Assembly (NCBI GenBank): GCA_947498625.1
Contig: CANMKR010000003.1
Location: 434,001-498,000, forward strand
Reading direction: 5' to 3'
Origin: an uncultured Kangiella sp.
GTDB taxonomy: Bacteria; Pseudomonadota; Gammaproteobacteria; Enterobacterales; Kangiellaceae
Length of the DNA: 64,000 nt
Below are positions 1,618-11,341 of the stretch, in pieces. The stretch's first letter is position 1. Each line of letters opens with the position of its first letter. The translations under genes were made by a program, and so were the position numbers. The notes beneath the pieces are model-generated. The model did no database searches. It was given only the letters and a program-made list of their open reading frames with translations, and was not told where the DNA came from.

Positions 1618-2343
1618 ATGGAAACCGCTTCAAACTTTTTAGCCGATAACGTTTTATTACTCGGCATTCTTATCGTCACTGGATTAGTGATCGCAGTAGT
1701 ATATGCTGCATTAAAACATGCTGTAGTAAGGCAGCTAGAATCTAAAGTTTCAGAACTAAACACCGTATTAGAAACAAACACCAAAAATATTGCCAAGAAA
1801 CAACAATTGCTAGATGCAAAGTCAGAAGCACATGATGAGCTTAAAAGCTCCTTACAAGATTTATCTAATCGTCATACTGATTTAAGGCATCAATTTAATG
1901 AATCTCAAAAAAGCCTACAAAAGACTCAGGAAAGTTTTGATAACACCCATCAAGACTATTTGAACTCCATGCAAACTATCGCCAGTAATAACAAAGAGCA
2001 TGAGCTCGAATTACAAGCATTGAGAAATAGTTTAGAGAAGAAAGTTATCGACACTCAAAAAGAAGCGGATAAAAAAATCGATAATTTCCAAGAAAATTAT
2101 CGAGCTGAATTTGAACATTTAAAAAAGAGTCATAAGAGACTGGTTCAAGCTAACCAAACGATGAGTAAAACCGCTGATAATCTGCGAAATGAACGCGATT
2201 TTTATCGCACAGAATTTCAAACCTTACGTAATTTCCTGCATAATTCGCAAATGGATAAGGCCAAAGAACTAGTGAATCAACATGCGGATAAACTAGCTGA
2301 AAATAATAAAGTTATTAAGCTAACCAGTAATAAGAAAGATTAA
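1618..2343 (+). CDS. Membrane-anchored coiled-coil protein, unknown function
   Basis: A 241-residue protein with one N-terminal transmembrane helix (about residues 11-34, LLLGILIVTGLVIAVVYAAL). A long, highly charged helical region rich in Glu, Lys, Gln and Asn follows to near the C-terminus. The heptad-like pattern suggests a coiled coil projecting from the inner membrane. It recalls RmuC- or YhcB-like architecture, but I see no diagnostic motif of either family. It is divergent from bioD and its last four bases overlap the end of bioC, so it lies within the biotin gene cluster without an evident link to biotin. Confidence 0.8.
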   Translation: METASNFLADNVLLLGILIVTGLVIAVVYAALKHAVVRQLESKVSELNTVLETNTKNIAKKQQLLDAKSEAHDELKSSLQDLSNRHTDLRHQFNESQKSLQKTQESFDNTHQDYLNSMQTIASNNKEHELELQALRNSLEKKVIDTQKEADKKIDNFQENYRAEFEHLKKSHKRLVQANQTMSKTADNLRNERDFYRTEFQTLRNFLHNSQMDKAKELVNQHADKLAENNKVIKLTSNKKD

Positions 2344-3170
2344 AGCTCAATACCATATTCATGGTAGTCCATCGGTATTTCCTTTCGCCCAAAAGCGTGG
2401 CCATATACCAATTCGTAAGTTGCTGGTAACTCTCCATTGGCGAGCTTAAATTGTTGGTATTCCTTTTCCAAGTTGCGGATAACCGCTGGGCTGGTTAACC
2501 CTTTCCTTCGCTGCTGATCAATATTATGCGCACCTATATTTTTTAAATCTCGCATTAGTTCTAGCGCTTTATCATAACCAATCACCACTGCTTCATTGTC
2601 TACCACCGGATCTAACATAGCGGCATTGAGCATCGCATCCCCCAAATGGTGCATATCCATAAAATCATTCACATGCTTATGCTCATCTATACTTTTCCAA
2701 GAGGCTTTTAACTCAAATAAAGTATCAGGACCTAAGCTGGTAAAGAGTAATAAGCCATTTGGCTTTAACACTCGATGCAATTCTTTGAACAGTAAATCTA
2801 GTTGATCAATCCATTGAAACGTTAAATTAGAAAATATCAAGTCTTGGCTATTGGATTCTAAGGGGATCTCTAGCGCATCGGCACAAATATAGTTTTCACT
2901 AGTCGATTGTTGTCGACAATAATCAACCATACCCTGCGCTATATCCAATCCCATGACTTCTGCATTAGGATATTTCTGTTTTAAGGCTCGGGTGCAATGA
3001 CCGGTGCCACTGCCGATATCTAAAATGCTTTTTGGCTTTAGCTTAAAATAATCCAAACGTTCGAAAAGTCTGTCGCCAGCTATTCGCTGAAAAAAGGCAG
3101 CGTCATCATAAGTTTTTGCAGCATCGCTAAAAGAGTTGGCAACATCTTTATGATCAATTTGATTAACCAT
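2340..3170 (-). CDS. bioC: Malonyl-ACP O-methyltransferase BioC
   Basis: SAM-dependent methyltransferase that methylates the free carboxyl of malonyl-ACP, so that the fatty-acid machinery can elongate it to a pimeloyl ester. The 276 residues include SAM motif I ILDIGSGTGH at about 49-58, then GLDIAQGM, and a post-motif FSNLTFQWIDQ segment typical of BioC. Its start overlaps the end of bioH by eight bases, so the two are probably translated together. BioH, immediately upstream, removes the methyl group later, so this is a functional pair. Confidence 0.94.
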   Translation of the reverse strand: MVNQIDHKDVANSFSDAAKTYDDAAFFQRIAGDRLFERLDYFKLKPKSILDIGSGTGHCTRALKQKYPNAEVMGLDIAQGMVDYCRQQSTSENYICADALEIPLESNSQDLIFSNLTFQWIDQLDLLFKELHRVLKPNGLLLFTSLGPDTLFELKASWKSIDEHKHVNDFMDMHHLGDAMLNAAMLDPVVDNEAVVIGYDKALELMRDLKNIGAHNIDQQRRKGLTSPAVIRNLEKEYQQFKLANGELPATYELVYGHAFGRKEIPMDYHEYGIEL

Positions 3171-3951
3171 GGTGCTTCGCCTGTAAAAAGTTAATCACGT
3201 CTTGGGTAAATTCAGCTCGATTGGTTAAAAATGGCGCATGACTGGCTTTGGAATAAATTTTGTACTCTGCTATTGGATCGAGCTCATTAATGGTTTGTGC
3301 AACCTTATTGGGGATCAACGAATCCAGTCTTCCATAAAGCCTTAATCTGGGCATGCTCAAATCTTTTAGAAGCTGGCGTAAGTCAACTTGATTTAACATC
3401 TGTAACCCATGACGTAATGCTTTAGTAGCTGGTGTTCCATGAATAAATACCGTTTCACGGAGAAATTTTATATCCTCTTTTTGTGTAGCGCTACCCATAG
3501 CTTGAATTGCCAAGAAGCGAATAATAGTCCCTTGGTAATCCTCTTCTAAAAAACGGCAGAAAGAATCCATGATGTTTGCTTTCATCGCATGTGGCCAATC
3601 TTCTGATTGAACAAACTTTGGACTAGAGGCAACCGTTATTAATTTACTTACTTTTGTAGGATGATTGATTGCAATATTGGTTGCTACTAAACCACCAAGT
3701 GACCAACCTAAATAGTGTGCTTTTTCAGGCGCAACTTTTAAGACTTGCTCAGTCAATAAAGATAAATCGTAGTCAGCGCTTGGAATTGGCGAGCGGCCAA
3801 ATCCTGGTAAATCAATTAAGTGCACCCGAAAGTGTTGAGTTAACTCTTCTAGCAATAATTGCCAAATACCTGAGTGCAAACCCCAACCATGCAACAGGAC
3901 TAGATCTTCACCTTGACCATGGGATTCTATGTATGGTTTTAATTGTGACAC
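3163..3951 (-). CDS. bioH: Pimeloyl-ACP methyl ester carboxylesterase BioH
   Basis: Alpha/beta hydrolase that cleaves pimeloyl-ACP methyl ester to free pimeloyl-ACP, ending the BioC-dependent chain-elongation phase. It has 262 residues. Visible motifs are the oxyanion-region HGWG at 21-24, the nucleophile elbow GWSLGG with Ser84, an acidic residue in LYGRLDSLIP and the catalytic histidine in KASHAPFL. The start is GTG, one base after the bioF stop codon, which fits tight coupling in the bioB-bioF-bioH-bioC operon. Confidence 0.94.
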   Translation of the reverse strand: MSQLKPYIESHGQGEDLVLLHGWGLHSGIWQLLLEELTQHFRVHLIDLPGFGRSPIPSADYDLSLLTEQVLKVAPEKAHYLGWSLGGLVATNIAINHPTKVSKLITVASSPKFVQSEDWPHAMKANIMDSFCRFLEEDYQGTIIRFLAIQAMGSATQKEDIKFLRETVFIHGTPATKALRHGLQMLNQVDLRQLLKDLSMPRLRLYGRLDSLIPNKVAQTINELDPIAEYKIYSKASHAPFLTNRAEFTQDVINFLQAKHHG

Positions 3952-5109
3952 TTAAGCAACCTTTAAACTTTTAGATAAATTATCGACTAGTTGTTCGATA
4001 TGAGATTTATTGTGCGCAGCGCTTAATGTAATACGTAAACGCGCGGTATTGATTGGCACTGTTGGAGGTCTTATCGCAAGCGCTAAAATACCTTTATCTT
4101 TTAATTCCTGACTGACTCTTAAGGCTTTATCATTATGTTTTAACAACAAAGGTTGAATCGCAGTTTCAGAATCCATTAGAGGTAGATCTTGTTCAAATGC
4201 CAAAGCTCGAAAGTAACGAATATTCTTTATTAATTGCTCTCTTCGTTCCGATTCCGATTGAATAAGCGCTAAACCAGCACGGTTAGCGGCGGCAATAGCG
4301 GCCGGCATAGCTGTGGTATAAATATAACTTCGAGCAAATTGAATAAGGCTCTCAATAAGATCTTTTCCGCCTGCCACAAAAGCACCAAAGCCACCAACGG
4401 CTTTGCCTAAAGTAGCCATATAAATTTCTGCTTCAGGTTGCTCTAAAGCAAAATGCTCTAAGCTACCTTTACCTTTATTTCCTAATACTCCAAAGCCATG
4501 AGCATCATCAATCATTAAGCTGGCTTTATGCTTTTGCTTTATTTTGAGCAGCTCAATGATTGGCGCTATATCACCATCCATACTAAAAACGCCGTCACTC
4601 ACAATCAGCTTAGTTTCCGCGGCATGTTGCAACTGTCTTTCTAGAGAGGCCATATCCTTATGTGCAAAACGACTATTTTTAGCTTCACTAGCGATCCCGC
4701 CATCAATTAAAGAAGCATGATTTAACTTGTCTTGTACGATTAAATCCCGTTTATCCAGCAATGAGGTTAACACACCTAAATTAGCCATAAACCCAGTGGA
4801 AAATAATAAAGCTTTTTCCGTCCCTAGAAACTCTGCTAACTCTTCTTCGAGCTGGTGATGCTCTTGGGTATGACCGACGATTAAATGGGAAGCGCCACTT
4901 CCAGCACCAGTATTTTTAGCGCTAGTTCGAATCGCCTCAATCAGTTTTGGGTGATTAGCTAAACCAAGGTAATCATTACTACTAAAATTCAGCAGGGCTT
5001 GCCCATTTACGGTTACTTTAGCGCCTTGGGGGCTATCTAAAGTTAACCGCTGACGGATTAAATCCTGCGCTTGGCGAGCTTGTAAGCGCCTTTGTAATTT
5101 ATTCAACAT
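3952..5109 (-). CDS. bioF: 8-amino-7-oxononanoate synthase BioF
   Basis: PLP-dependent alpha-oxoamine synthase that condenses pimeloyl-ACP with L-alanine to form 8-amino-7-oxononanoate. The 385-residue length is normal for BioF. Landmarks are NFSSNDYLGL at about 41-50, the PLP-ring DDAHGFG at 201-207 and the Schiff-base lysine Lys236 in TLGKAVGG. It lies 26 bases downstream of bioB and one base from bioH. The related glycine C-acetyltransferase Kbl is excluded mainly by the biotin operon context. Confidence 0.95.
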   Translation of the reverse strand: MLNKLQRRLQARQAQDLIRQRLTLDSPQGAKVTVNGQALLNFSSNDYLGLANHPKLIEAIRTSAKNTGAGSGASHLIVGHTQEHHQLEEELAEFLGTEKALLFSTGFMANLGVLTSLLDKRDLIVQDKLNHASLIDGGIASEAKNSRFAHKDMASLERQLQHAAETKLIVSDGVFSMDGDIAPIIELLKIKQKHKASLMIDDAHGFGVLGNKGKGSLEHFALEQPEAEIYMATLGKAVGGFGAFVAGGKDLIESLIQFARSYIYTTAMPAAIAAANRAGLALIQSESERREQLIKNIRYFRALAFEQDLPLMDSETAIQPLLLKHNDKALRVSQELKDKGILALAIRPPTVPINTARLRITLSAAHNKSHIEQLVDNLSKSLKVA

Positions 5110-5135: not shown

Positions 5136-6191
5136 TTAAACTTGAGATGCGTCGTAAAACAATTCTTTCTTTTTGGGTGCCGGAACTTTGATTTCATCAT
5201 TAGTCACTTCTGCGCCTTCAGGTTGAATGCCCAGCTGCTTAAAAAGTTGCATATCGGCTTCCGCTTCAGGGTTCGCAGTCGTTAATAATTTTTCACCATA
5301 GAAAATTGAATTAGCACCAGCGGCGAAACAAAGGGTTTGCGTTTCTTTATTCATATCTTCACGACCAGCGGAGAGACGAACGTAAGATTTTGGCATAACA
5401 ATTCTCGCCGTTGCGATCATGCGTATAAAATCAATTGAGTCTAACTTTTCAACTTTGCCTAAAGGCGTCCCTTCTACCGCCACTAACATATTGATAGGGA
5501 CTGACTGTGGATGCTCTGGCATATTTGCTAACTGTTGGATCAGACCATAGCGATCTTTAATTTGCTCGCCCATGCCAATAATTCCACCTGAGCAAACGTT
5601 AATGCCAGCATCACGGACATTTTGTAGCGTATCTAAACGATTTTCATAGGTTCGAGTTGAAATGATTTGCTCATAATACTCAGGCGAAGTATCTAAATTA
5701 TGATTGTAATAATCCAAACCAGCTTCAGCCAATTGATCCGCCTGCTCATCAGTTAACATTCCCAAAGTCACACAAGTTTCTAAGCCAAGTGATTTAACTT
5801 GCTTAACCATTTCTAAAACCACGGTTAAATCTTTTTCCCGCGGCGAACGCCAAGCAGCCCCCATACAAAAACGAGTAGCGCCATTTTTCTTCGCTTGCTG
5901 GGCTTTAGTAATAACTTCTTCAACCGCCATTAATTGCTCTTTCGACAGCCCAGTATTGTAATGGCCCGACTGAGGACAATAAGCACAATCTTCAGGACAA
6001 GCACCGGTTTTAATACTCAGCAAAGTACTCGTTTGTACTTCATTGGGGTTAAAGTGTTGGCGATGGATGCTTTGCGCTGCAAACAATAAGTCGTTAAAAG
6101 GCTGATTATAGATAGCGCCAATTTCATCTAATGACCAATCGTTGCGTAATTGACCACTGTTCAAAATATCTAGATTTACCGGTTTGCTCAT
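5136..6191 (-). CDS. bioB: Biotin synthase BioB
   Basis: Radical-SAM enzyme that inserts sulfur into dethiobiotin, the last step of biotin synthesis. The 351-residue protein carries the radical-SAM cluster motif with Cys65, Cys69 and Cys72 (CPEDCAYC), followed by PQSGHY. The downstream [12 protein letters not shown] and RLSAGREDM segments are classic BioB signatures for the second cluster and for substrate binding. It is the first gene of the minus-strand biotin operon. A TATAAT hexamer lies about 20 bases upstream of its start on the minus strand, and a BirA operator lies farther upstream, next to divergent comF. Confidence 0.97.
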
Positions 6192-6201
6192 CGCTGTTTA
6201 T

Positions 6202-6213
6202 ACCTTATTATAA
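6202..6213 (-). promoter_or_regulatory. Possible -10 element for the bioB operon
   Basis: On the minus strand a perfect TATAAT hexamer lies about 15 bases before the bioB ATG, followed by AAGG, a weak ribosome-binding site. No good -35 hexamer is seen at the usual distance; the best is a poor CGACAA. The alternative is a longer leader starting near a minus-strand TTGACA that lies inside the BirA box around 6397-6402. I cannot decide between them. Confidence 0.35.
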
Positions 6214-6397
6214 TGATTGCTTAGTTACTTTTTGTCGGTCGTTACAATATGACGACTAACCAAAATAACTCTTTCAGAACGGATATCTGAATTGTCAATA
6301 ACTAGCTAAGCAATTGAATTTAAATGACTTTATGTTTTAATTCGTTAACTTTTTTATCATTTAGATAGCGATTTAATCACCATTCATTGATAAGAAG

Positions 6398-6431
6398 TTG
6401 TCAACCAAATAAAAGGATTTATGGTTTACAA
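6398..6431. promoter_or_regulatory. BirA (biotin repressor) operator
   Basis: Two nine-base arms, TTGTCAACC (6398-6406) and GGTTTACAA (6423-6431), are separated by exactly 16 bases. This is the arm sequence and spacing I recall for the E. coli bio operator (TTGTAAACC-N16-GGTTTACAA), with one arm substitution. The right arm covers codons 1-4 of comF, and the spacer contains its ribosome-binding site. The minus-strand complement of the left arm contains a TTGACA hexamer that could be the -35 of a bio promoter. Binding by BirA is inferred; the match is seen directly. Confidence 0.82.
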
Positions 6432-7149
6432 GCGATTTTACCCTGTTTTACTCGATGCAGCCAATAGAATTCTGGCTGGTCATTCCTGCGTGCTCTGCGG
6501 TCTTAGAGCTAAATCTCTGACAAGCCCTAAAGCTATCTGCCAAGTCTGCCTAGCAGCCATTCAACTGAATGGAAACGGCTGTTATCAATGCGGTATATCG
6601 ATCAAAAGTACTGACGGCCAACAAAAGTGTGGCGAATGTTTGAAACATCCAAAACCCTATCACCGATTAATAGCATCCTGTCATTATGACTTTCCTGTCA
6701 ATCAAGCCATTAGTCGCTTCAAATTCAATCAGCAGCTACACCTTGGTAAGGCTTTTGCACAAGAGTTGAGTCAACGTATCTTAGCAGCCTATCAAGATGA
6801 TCAGCTACCACAGTTGCTTATTCCAATACCGCTGCATCACAAAAGGTTGGCCGAGCGCGGATTTAATCAATCACTACTGATTGGCAAAACTATTAGCCAT
6901 AAAATATCCATATCAATCGCCGCTAATAAATTGATTAGAGTCAAAAACACCCCACATCAAATTGGTTTGAAAGCGACTCAACGGAAACAAAATCTAAGGA
7001 ACGCCTTTGCAGTTAAATCACAACTGCCAAGGCATATCGCCTTGATTGATGATGTCGTGACTACCGGAAGCACCATCACGGAAGCCACCAAACAATGCAT
7101 TAAGCATGGAGCTGAAAGGATTGATATTTGGTGTCTAGCTAAAACTTAG
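6421..7149 (+). CDS. comF: ComF family protein (GntX-like phosphoribosyltransferase fold)
   Basis: The 242-residue protein has a cysteine-rich N-terminus with four CxxC pairs (Cys23/26, 40/43, 54/57, 70/73), a probable zinc-binding region. A C-terminal type I phosphoribosyltransferase domain ends in the PRPP loop IDDVVTTGST near residues 203-212. ComF/GntX proteins are linked to uptake or use of external DNA; the exact activity is not settled. The ATG at 6421 has AAAAGG seven bases upstream. A BirA box overlaps the start, so expression may respond to biotin along with the divergent bioB operon. Confidence 0.9.
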   Translation: MVYKRFYPVLLDAANRILAGHSCVLCGLRAKSLTSPKAICQVCLAAIQLNGNGCYQCGISIKSTDGQQKCGECLKHPKPYHRLIASCHYDFPVNQAISRFKFNQQLHLGKAFAQELSQRILAAYQDDQLPQLLIPIPLHHKRLAERGFNQSLLIGKTISHKISISIAANKLIRVKNTPHQIGLKATQRKQNLRNAFAVKSQLPRHIALIDDVVTTGSTITEATKQCIKHGAERIDIWCLAKT

Positions 7150-8803: not shown

Positions 8804-10132
8804 TTGTTAAATAAAGACCGTTCGAGCCAAGTTCTGCAGATATCGCTGCCAATAGTGGGTGGCATGATATCGCAAAACATCCTAAATCTAGTCGATGCGG
8901 CTATGGTTGGCTCACAAGGCTCTGCGGCAATCGCTGCTATTGGTATTGCCGGCTTTATCAACTTTATGGCAGTTGCCTTTTTTATGGGTTTTGCCTCAGG
9001 CGTGCAAGCCATGGTCGCTCGCCGCATGGGCGAGGGACGCAAATCTGAGTCCGCCTACCCTTTGAACGGCGCCTTGATGCTGATCACCATTGCAGCAATT
9101 CCCACCAGTATTGTTTTATTTTTTCTAGCTCCTGAAATTTTAAATTTTCTCAATGACGATCCTGAGTTACTGCAAGAAGGCATTCCATATTTGCAAGCCC
9201 GCTTTGTTGGTATCTGGGCAATTGGCTTAAACTTTAGTTACCGCGGTTATTGGAGTTCCATCAATAAAACTCAATATTATTTACGTACTTTACTGGTGAT
9301 GCATGCGCTTAATATTTTCCTGAATTACTGTTTGATTTTTGGTAATTTTGGTTTCCCAGAACTGGGAACCTTAGGCGCAGGTATTGGCACTACCGTTTCT
9401 TTAACTCTGGGTACTTTTTATTATCATTATCTGGCAAAAAAGCATACTTCAGAGTTTGGCTACTTTAAGCAAATCGCTAGCTGGGCGACACAACAAGATA
9501 TTATAAAAATTTCACTGCCGTCTTCGGTCCAGCAACTTTTTTTCGCCGCTGGTTTTACTGCTTTATTTTGGATCATCGGTGAAGTTGGAACTAATGAGCT
9601 AGCAGCAGCAAATGCGATCACTAACGTTATGCTAGTTGGCATTCTACCCTGTATCGCTTTAGGTATCGGAGCCGCTACTTTAGTGGGACAAGCTTTGGGA
9701 CGCAAAGATCCGAAAGACGCCTATTTATGGGGTTGGGATGTTTCGAAAATGGCATTAATATTTTCGATTGGGTTGGGAATAATATTTTATCTATTTACTG
9801 ATCCAATAATGAGTATTTTCTTACGTGAACAAGCTGCTTTAGAAGCTGCCCATTGGCCGTTTAAACTATCGGCTTTAATCATTATTATCGATGCGGTTGG
9901 TTTAGTATTTTTAAATGCGCTCAGTGGCGCTGGCTATACCAAGCCACCAATGTATGTTTCGCTAATCACTCAATGGTTAATGTTCTTACCGATTGCCTAT
10001 TTCATGCAGCAAAATGGTGCCAGCTTTACTCTTATCTGGACTGCTTACGCTATCTACCGCGTGATCCAAACGATTGCCTTTATTTGGCTATGGCAAAAAA
10101 GAAACTGGATGCAAGTTGAAATGAACTCTTAA
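8804..10132 (+). CDS. MATE family multidrug/Na+ antiporter
   Basis: A 442-residue integral membrane protein with about twelve hydrophobic helices. The N-terminal LQISLPIVGGMISQNILNLVDAA pattern is characteristic of the MATE (NorM/DinF/YdhE) family, and ALGIGAATLVGQALGR at mid-protein is the repeat counterpart. Such proteins export cationic drugs or metabolites using Na+ or H+ gradients. The only plausible start in this frame is TTG at 8804, since a stop lies 12 bases upstream. No strong ribosome-binding site is visible, so initiation may be weak. Confidence 0.9.
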   Translation: MLNKDRSSQVLQISLPIVGGMISQNILNLVDAAMVGSQGSAAIAAIGIAGFINFMAVAFFMGFASGVQAMVARRMGEGRKSESAYPLNGALMLITIAAIPTSIVLFFLAPEILNFLNDDPELLQEGIPYLQARFVGIWAIGLNFSYRGYWSSINKTQYYLRTLLVMHALNIFLNYCLIFGNFGFPELGTLGAGIGTTVSLTLGTFYYHYLAKKHTSEFGYFKQIASWATQQDIIKISLPSSVQQLFFAAGFTALFWIIGEVGTNELAAANAITNVMLVGILPCIALGIGAATLVGQALGRKDPKDAYLWGWDVSKMALIFSIGLGIIFYLFTDPIMSIFLREQAALEAAHWPFKLSALIIIIDAVGLVFLNALSGAGYTKPPMYVSLITQWLMFLPIAYFMQQNGASFTLIWTAYAIYRVIQTIAFIWLWQKRNWMQVEMNS

Positions 10133-10738: not shown

Positions 10739-11341
10739 ATGAAAAAAATGATTACCCCACTACTATTTGCTGCGCTAAGCTTGGGATTGTCTCAAGCAGT
10801 TGATGCAAAAGAGCATCATGGCTCTAAAAAGCATCAAGTTCAAAAGCATAAGCATTCAAGTAGTAGTTCAAACTATCGTTCATCGCAACCGCGCTCATCG
10901 AATCGTGCAAGCAATCACTCTTCTCGCTCCAATGCGCGAACGCATGATGCTTACCGAGACAGTAATCGCCACAGTAATCGATACGATAATAGACATTCAA
11001 ACCGTCATAGCGATAGGCACAGTAATCGACATAGTAATCGACACAGCAACCGTCATTACGATCGTCGTCATGACCATAGACATAGCGATCGCTATTATCA
11101 TGATCGTCATTACCGTGATCGTTATAAGCCGCGTCATAGACACCATTATAGCTATAACAATTATTACCCACGTTATGACTATTACCCAACGTCGGTTTAT
11201 TACTTAGGTCAAGATTGGTACTACTATGGTAATGCTTATCATCCGTTCCCACGCGGCCATGTTCACAGAAGTCATTGTAGACACCGTTATTGGGAGCCAT
11301 TAGCCGTCGGCATTATCTTAGGCTCAGTGCTTGGCTGGTAA
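10739..11341 (+). CDS. Exported His/Arg/Ser/Tyr-rich low-complexity protein
   Basis: A 200-residue protein with a signal peptide of about 23 residues (LLFAALSLGLSQAVDA, cleavage before KEHHG). The middle, about residues 25-125, is almost entirely His, Arg, Ser, Asn and Asp with imperfect tandem HSNR units. A Tyr-rich stretch follows. The C-terminus PLAVGIILGSVLGW is hydrophobic and glycine-rich, like the ends of some outer-membrane or RcnB-like proteins. Metal (Ni, Co, Cu, Zn) binding in the periplasm is plausible from composition but not shown. The start has a clear AGGAGA site. Other-frame ORFs here arise from the repeats. Confidence 0.8.
   Translation: MKKMITPLLFAALSLGLSQAVDAKEHHGSKKHQVQKHKHSSSSSNYRSSQPRSSNRASNHSSRSNARTHDAYRDSNRHSNRYDNRHSNRHSDRHSNRHSNRHSNRHYDRRHDHRHSDRYYHDRHYRDRYKPRHRHHYSYNNYYPRYDYYPTSVYYLGQDWYYYGNAYHPFPRGHVHRSHCRHRYWEPLAVGIILGSVLGW
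10961..11110 (+). repeat. Imperfect short tandem repeats coding for HSNR units
   Basis: DNA built from degenerate 12-base units of the type CAYAGTAATCGA lies inside the His-rich gene. Copies differ by silent and conservative changes. This region keeps several frames open, which explains the overlapping false ORFs. Such repeats can change in copy number by slippage. Confidence 0.7.

Follow-up and report, generated by a model that had tools for sequence, protein, structure and literature searches.

According to the main text of Leyn et al. 2016 (PMC5343134), BirA sites in the Proteobacteria are found at biotin genes, and such a regulon is apparently missing from alpha- and betaproteobacteria whose BirA no longer has its DNA-binding domain. 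Neither comF nor bioB is mentioned there. A comF gene is reported next to a biotin gene in E. coli and Serratia, where comFC (gntX/yhgH) and bioH form a divergent pair, and E. coli bioH is stated to be outside BirA regulation (biotin-gene passages of PMC5438404). P. aeruginosa has a bioBFHCD operon; BirA also represses biotin synthesis in this organism, with bioA exempt (corresponding passages of PMC9894557). A whole-word literature search for BirA together with comF returned only PMC9302846, a figure legend of which names ComF and BirA-recognised motifs in biotin gene neighbourhoods. PMC10963909 refers to a start-site map of the whole P. putida genome (D'Arrigo 2016). The passages searched in this literature, including those of PMC5343134, PMC5438404, PMC9894557, PMC9302846 and PMC10963909, give no comF start sites or biotin response. 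These searched passages likewise contain no statement of an operator overlapping or controlling comF.

The locus analyzed here is the bioB-comF region of an uncultured Kangiella sp. It lies in a stretch of 64,000 nucleotides (GCA_947498625.1, contig CANMKR010000003.1, positions 434,001 to 498,000), referred to as the window. An initial annotation of these letters placed a BirA operator on the comF start codon.

An inverted repeat covers the comF start

The repeat TTGTCAACC-N16-GGTTTACAA lies where bioB, on the minus strand from its ATG at 6191, and comF, on the plus strand from its ATG at 6421, diverge, and it does cover the comF start (Table 1). The right arm (6423-6431) is made up of the G of the comF ATG followed by codons 2-4 (GTT TAC and the AA of AAG). 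The coordinates bear out the annotated position of the right arm on comF codons 1-4 and of the ribosome-binding site (AAGGA) in the spacer. The E. coli K-12 operator bioO was taken from NC_000913 and reads TTGTAAACC-N16-GGTTTACAA. The window box differs from it at one base (A to C, position 5) and has equal spacing, which confirms the annotated distance of one substitution from the E. coli bio operator. The box has the 9-base inverted arms of the TTGTAAACC/GGTTTACAA kind separated by a spacer in the 14-16 range, and it stands in front of a biotin gene, as it also does in relatives.

Table 1. Coordinates of the operator, genes and promoter candidates in the window.
Feature	Position	Strand	Remarks
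BirA operator (bio box)	6398-6431	strand-neutral	arms 6398-6406 and 6423-6431, 16-nt spacer; TTGTCAACC-N16-GGTTTACAA
comF/gntX-like gene	6421..7149	+	codons 1-4 within right arm; ATG 6421-6423
AAGGA, likely comF ribosome-binding site	6413..6417	+	inside operator spacer
bioB	5136..6191	-	first gene of the putatively controlled operon; NCBIfam model
bioF	3952..5109	-	NCBIfam model
bioH	3163..3951	-	NCBIfam model
bioC	2340..3170	-	NCBIfam model
TTGACA, -35 of usual bioB promoter	6399..6404	-	overlaps left arm; -10 not recognizable in this genome
Candidate bioB -35, TTGGCT	6459..6464	-	comF codons 13-15; same place and invariant in 6/6 group genomes
Candidate bioB -10, TAAAAT	6435..6440	-	comF codons 5-7; conserved in 6/6 group genomes
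Candidate comF promoter, TTGCTC-N19-TATAAT	6184..6214	+	begins in bioB codons 1-3; weak evidence
Alternative candidate comF promoter, TTGAAT-N16-TTTAAT	6314..6341	+	among top three only in G000, G012

The pattern TTGTCAACC-N16-GGTTTACAA occurred 0 times in 100 shuffles of the window (expected by chance, 0), and the window box is the single strict match to TTGTNAACC-N14..18-GGTTNACAA in the 2.32-Mb genome. A relaxed search for more boxes (16-nt spacer, ≤3 mismatches) gave 4 sites, namely the box and 3 sites with 2-3 mismatches, against 3 for a reversed-pattern control, and the additional sites were rejected. By the same relaxed rule there is no box near bioD in the window. The bioA gene is located elsewhere in the genome and has no box, its best match having 6 mismatches.

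Among NCBIfam models, the comF product matches GntX best (E = 1.3e-51, 175.3 bits, cut-off 304), followed by comF (E = 3e-41, 141.5 bits, cut-off 233.55). The double zinc ribbon DZR_2 (23, cut-off 27) and the phosphoribosyltransferase domain Pribosyltran (20.2, cut-off 26.3) of Pfam are also under their cut-offs. By similarity the protein is clearly a GntX/ComF relative, though below the curated thresholds. NCBIfam models confirm the identity of bioD in the window as they do for the other bio genes. In the window and in K. aquimarina, bioD is separated from the bioBFHC genes because an ORF of opposite direction stands between bioC and bioD. This ORF is at 1618-2343 (+) in the window, where it is without a Pfam match, and at 8922-9626 (-) in the K. 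aquimarina locus; the ORFs have 234-241 aa. Farther along the window, the ORF at 10739-11341 (+) has a high content of His, Arg and Ser and contains short repeats.

BirA of the window genome

The HTH_11, BPL_LplA_LipB and BPL_C domains of the window-genome BirA all score above Pfam cut-offs, and the N-terminal HTH is fused to the biotin ligase. The protein passes NF008847, the NCBIfam model of the bifunctional ligase/repressor (318.4 bits, cut-off 293). TIGR00122, the model of the repressor HTH, matches at 61.6 and 58.5 bits in two scans, both under its cut-off of 70; most TIGR00122 matches sit below the curated cut-off, in all groups of genomes. The model matches BirA in 19/19 Kangiella with comF and exceeds the cut-off in 2 (G008 and G009). 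Judged by these domain matches, the window-genome BirA is of the repressor type.

The box is conserved throughout Kangiella

The initial annotation had proposed aligning the bioB-comF gap across relatives, and had named loss of the box in close relatives with an HTH-type BirA as the outcome that would speak against an operator. The box is on the comF start in 19/19 Kangiella genomes with comF, a set that leaves out G002 (55% complete, no comF match), and its spacer is 16 nt every time. All 19 combine the box with a TIGR00122 match, and the named loss does not occur within the genus. The comF ATG has an offset of +23 in 12 genomes, where the right arm begins with its G, and of +33 in 7, where the right arm ends with its A. 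The +23 of one locus (L007), which the comF pattern missed, was taken from its box sequence. Between the box and bioB there are 62 to 207 nt, depending on the genome. All 19 genomes have C or T, never the pairing A, at position 5 of the left arm.

In other genera of the family the boxes have diverged, around a core of TGTCAA...TTNACA. This comparison covers 10 loci, nine of the family and one of the order (L031), with the BirA HTH scanned in G020 and G022. In five loci of these genera (L023, L024, L026, L027 and L029) the inner CC/GG of the box is replaced, as in CTGTCAAGN...AGTTNACAN, and this replacement suggests a changed BirA preference. In three genomes of one sister genus (G022, G026 and G032) the diverged box stands 73-143 nt before the first listed comF start.

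The box accompanies bioB and a recognized BirA HTH

A wider census was made of 80 comF upstream regions from gammaproteobacteria, 75 being every second of the 150 matches listed and 5 being hand-picked. Divergent bioB was present in 57/80 regions within a search span of only ~900 nt, which was shorter in three loci at contig ends. Starting from bioB, divergent comF was found at 64/80 loci (named records). Box mismatches were counted against a pattern that accepts the alternative bases found in Kangiella and Pseudomonas.

Box presence follows the DNA-binding domain of BirA. The HTH is fused to the ligase in 39 comF|bioB genomes from 32 families, and the comF start region has the box in 36/39 at ≤3 mismatches and 39/39 at ≤4. 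The ligase has no adjoining TIGR00122 match in 12 comF|bioB genomes from 11 other families, and the box is found in 0/12 at ≤4. The ligase was not found in 6 more, 3 of which have the box. Fisher tests of box versus BirA HTH give 2.9e-9 and 6.3e-12, for genomes that are not independent. Six of the 12 proteins have an N-terminus too short for an HTH. In the other 6 an unrecognized N-terminal stretch remains, possibly a diverged HTH; it measures 79-99 aa in five and is longer, with some uncertainty, in G188. HTH_11 passes in none of the 10/12 scanned (best 14 bits, cut-off 25). The contrast persists with the short-N-terminus genomes alone (box in 0/6; Fisher 1.0e-5 and 1.2e-7). The stretches that take the place of the HTH in five box-less genomes (L219, L220, L221, L226 and L230) are unrecognized by Pfam and TIGR00122 and are possibly decaying DNA-binding domains.

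The 23 census comF genes without bioB found alongside have the box in 0/23 at ≤3 mismatches, and four reach 4. A TIGR00122 match is present in 14 of these 23 genomes. Since the box accompanies bioB and a recognized BirA HTH and is absent at comF alone, it is best read as the BirA operator of bioB. The repressor-type BirA of the window genome and this co-occurrence support the annotated identity of the site.

Three loci stand apart. L138 (G204) combines a perfect box on comF with no match to a biotin ligase or repressor HTH, in a genome rated 100% complete. The comF gene of L207 (G154) has a right half-box and ATG only, with no bioB in ~600 nt upstream; the half-box may be a relic. In L061, recorded as Pantoea sp. 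Cy-639, the comF|bioB arrangement and the start offset match those of Pseudomonas; the record is possibly misnamed.

The position of the comF start relative to the box was scored at 116 loci, which are those of 140 that have a box with ≤3 mismatches and a start that was found. They include many Pseudomonas and count two species twice (L053/G006 and L054/G001). The predicted start is in the right arm at 50 loci, the spacer at 9 and the left arm at 1 (60 inside the box), upstream at 35 and downstream at 21. An upstream start puts the box inside the gene, as in most Pseudomonas, where the start is at -5. For G010 the scoring rule placed the start at -39, although there is an ATG at +33.

The bioB promoter

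A minus-strand TTGACA overlapping the left arm had been put forward as part of a possible bioB promoter. The overlap holds, and TTGACA is within the bioB-side arm at 103/109 loci (those of 122 with a box at ≤2 mismatches). TAnnnT occurs exactly 16 nt beyond it at 52/103 loci outside the window group, which comprises the window genome and five close relatives; the chance level is 8% for any of 5 spacings. The usual promoter, TTGACA-N16-TAAACT or TACACT, is the best-scoring one in 13/19 Kangiella with comF. The window genome has no TAnnnT 15-19 nt from TTGACA, so a promoter using this hexamer is unsupported here. The usual -10 is not recognizable at its place in any of the six Kangiella of the window group.

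TTGGCT-N18-TAAAAT, spanning comF codons 5-15, has the top promoter score on the bioB strand in 6/6 window-group genomes under a matrix of E. coli promoter frequencies. Its predicted start is near 6428, ~3 nt inside the box in the right arm. The hexamer bases are invariant in 12/12 positions among the six genomes, compared to 8/18 in the spacer and 249/663 in the rest of comF (p = 1e-5), and 0/598 other hexamer pairs are as conserved. The hexamers stay the same even though the spacer varies and the codon preceding GCC does not always encode the same amino acid. Four codons of comF codons 5-16 were usable for synonymous conservation and three are identical (p = 0.015). These figures come from six related genomes and an overlapping coding sequence. 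A plain consensus scan of 6000-7000 gave 3 promoter-like sites including the embedded one, and the shuffled mean was 3.0; the strength of the site alone is therefore no evidence, and the weight rests on its conservation. The tree is compatible with a single promoter switch, with support of only 70/62. The operator clearly overlaps the predicted bio promoter in 13/19 Kangiella, and in the window group the conserved candidate start is inside the box. Most likely, to go by this conservation, the bioB promoter of the window genome and its five relatives moved into comF codons 5-15. The conserved embedded candidate is new here.

The comF promoter and leader folding

Promoter scoring of the 19 Kangiella found no convincing comF promoter. 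A counterpart of TTGCTC-N19-TATAAT is among the top three scores in 18/19. Its conservation has another possible cause because it overlaps the start codon and ribosome-binding site of bioB. Because the comF ribosome-binding site is inside the box, comF would be transcribed through the box and any promoter would lie upstream of it. The comF leader has an ordinary folding energy (z = -0.32 and -0.39). For the predicted bioB leader, the initial 122 nt (6310-6431, -) give z = -1.90, and 7/200 shuffles fold as well.

Discussion

Computation establishes the box, its conservation, its tie to a recognized BirA HTH and to bioB, and the conserved promoter hexamers. The explanation that we favor, at a probability of roughly three in four, is that the box is the BirA operator of bioB-bioF-bioH-bioC in an old overlap with divergent comF, and that the bioB promoter likely moved in the window group. 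That BirA binds, where exactly transcription starts and whether comF is repressed at all are matters of inference. With ample biotin, BirA loaded with biotinyl-AMP would dimerize on the two arms and stop bioB transcription, as such dimers do in E. coli (repression passages of PMC5438404); when biotin is scarce, BirA would leave the operator. The comF gene is the divergent neighbor, in the place held by bioA in E. coli, and the operator overlaps its first codons owing to the close packing of the two 5' ends. In the window group, RNA polymerase would bind TTGGCT-N18-TAAAAT within comF and start bioB inside the operator arm rather than use the far-arm TTGACA. Bound BirA would thus cover the bioB -35 in most species and the bioB start site in the window group. 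The same dimer could block or hinder transcription into comF.

Repression of comF by BirA is plausible, and the explanations differ in what they make of it. Co-repression of comF as a true second target, with the operator kept there since biotin control of ComF is useful, would fit the steric overlap with the ribosome-binding site and start codon and the predicted starts inside the box (60/116) or upstream of it (35/116). It is rather unlikely, because comF without bioB lacks the box at ≤3 mismatches even in genomes with a TIGR00122 match, the 12 genomes without a recognized BirA HTH have lost the box though comF still adjoins bioB, and the boxes of G022, G032 and G026 stand well upstream of comF. 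The box thus appears to be maintained for bioB, which its ties to bioB and the recognized HTH mark as the selected target; an effect on comF would be collateral. The likelier possibility, at somewhat under even odds, is that the operator acts on bioB alone and leaves the expression of comF, a bystander, without measurable change. The box does accompany bioB and the HTH and not comF alone, but where a gene is transcribed, BirA bound over its start codon should interfere with transcription at least in part.

Two other explanations were weighed. The arms could pair as RNA around the ribosome-binding site and control comF translation with no protein site at all. This is highly improbable: the ordinary folding energy of the leader and the constant arm mismatch at position 5 led to its rejection as the cause of the palindrome, and box presence follows the BirA HTH. 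Least probable is a recent rearrangement that trapped the box at comF in this genome; the initial annotation had raised trapping by gene rearrangement as a possibility. Nothing was found in its favor, and the identical layout recurs in 19/19 Kangiella and in many other gammaproteobacterial families. On this distribution, the overlap with comF is an old and widely shared arrangement and not an accident of this genome. It is common, and the sister-genus boxes distant from comF show that it is not obligatory.

The box is a BirA operator in a variant layout. Its function is ordinary, and the interest is in the gene overlap and the apparent promoter move. In many bacterial families the same bases serve as repressor site and protein start, the start codon being variously placed in the site. 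One arm could be disrupted by synonymous changes in comF codons 2-3 with the protein left as it is. Within one genus the bioB promoter seems to have crossed to the other side of a fixed operator. A bolder and doubtful generalization, less probable than co-repression itself, is that in gammaproteobacterial comF|bioB pairs a single BirA dimer holds down biotin synthesis and ComF alike, such that biotin shortage raises a DNA-handling protein, and that in the window group the two genes carry each other's promoters in their first codons, the bioB promoter having switched sides around a shared operator that did not move.

Comparison with known BirA systems

The BirA regulons in the main text of PMC5343134 share with this locus BirA sites at biotin genes and the apparent absence of a regulon where the DNA-binding domain is lost. 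The targets named there are biotin genes, plus fatty-acid genes in Desulfovibrionales. The comFC-bioH pair in the passages of PMC5438404 likewise sets comF divergent to a biotin gene; there, however, the partner is bioH, which is described as outside BirA control in E. coli. The closest system is bioA-bioO-bioBFCD of E. coli, with a near-identical operator and spacing, a repressor-type BirA, and an operator between divergent genes that include bioB. The present locus differs in that the divergent gene is comF and not bioA, which lies elsewhere without a box, and in that the operator overlaps a start codon and coding sequence. It also differs in that the bioB promoter of the window group appears to lie inside comF.
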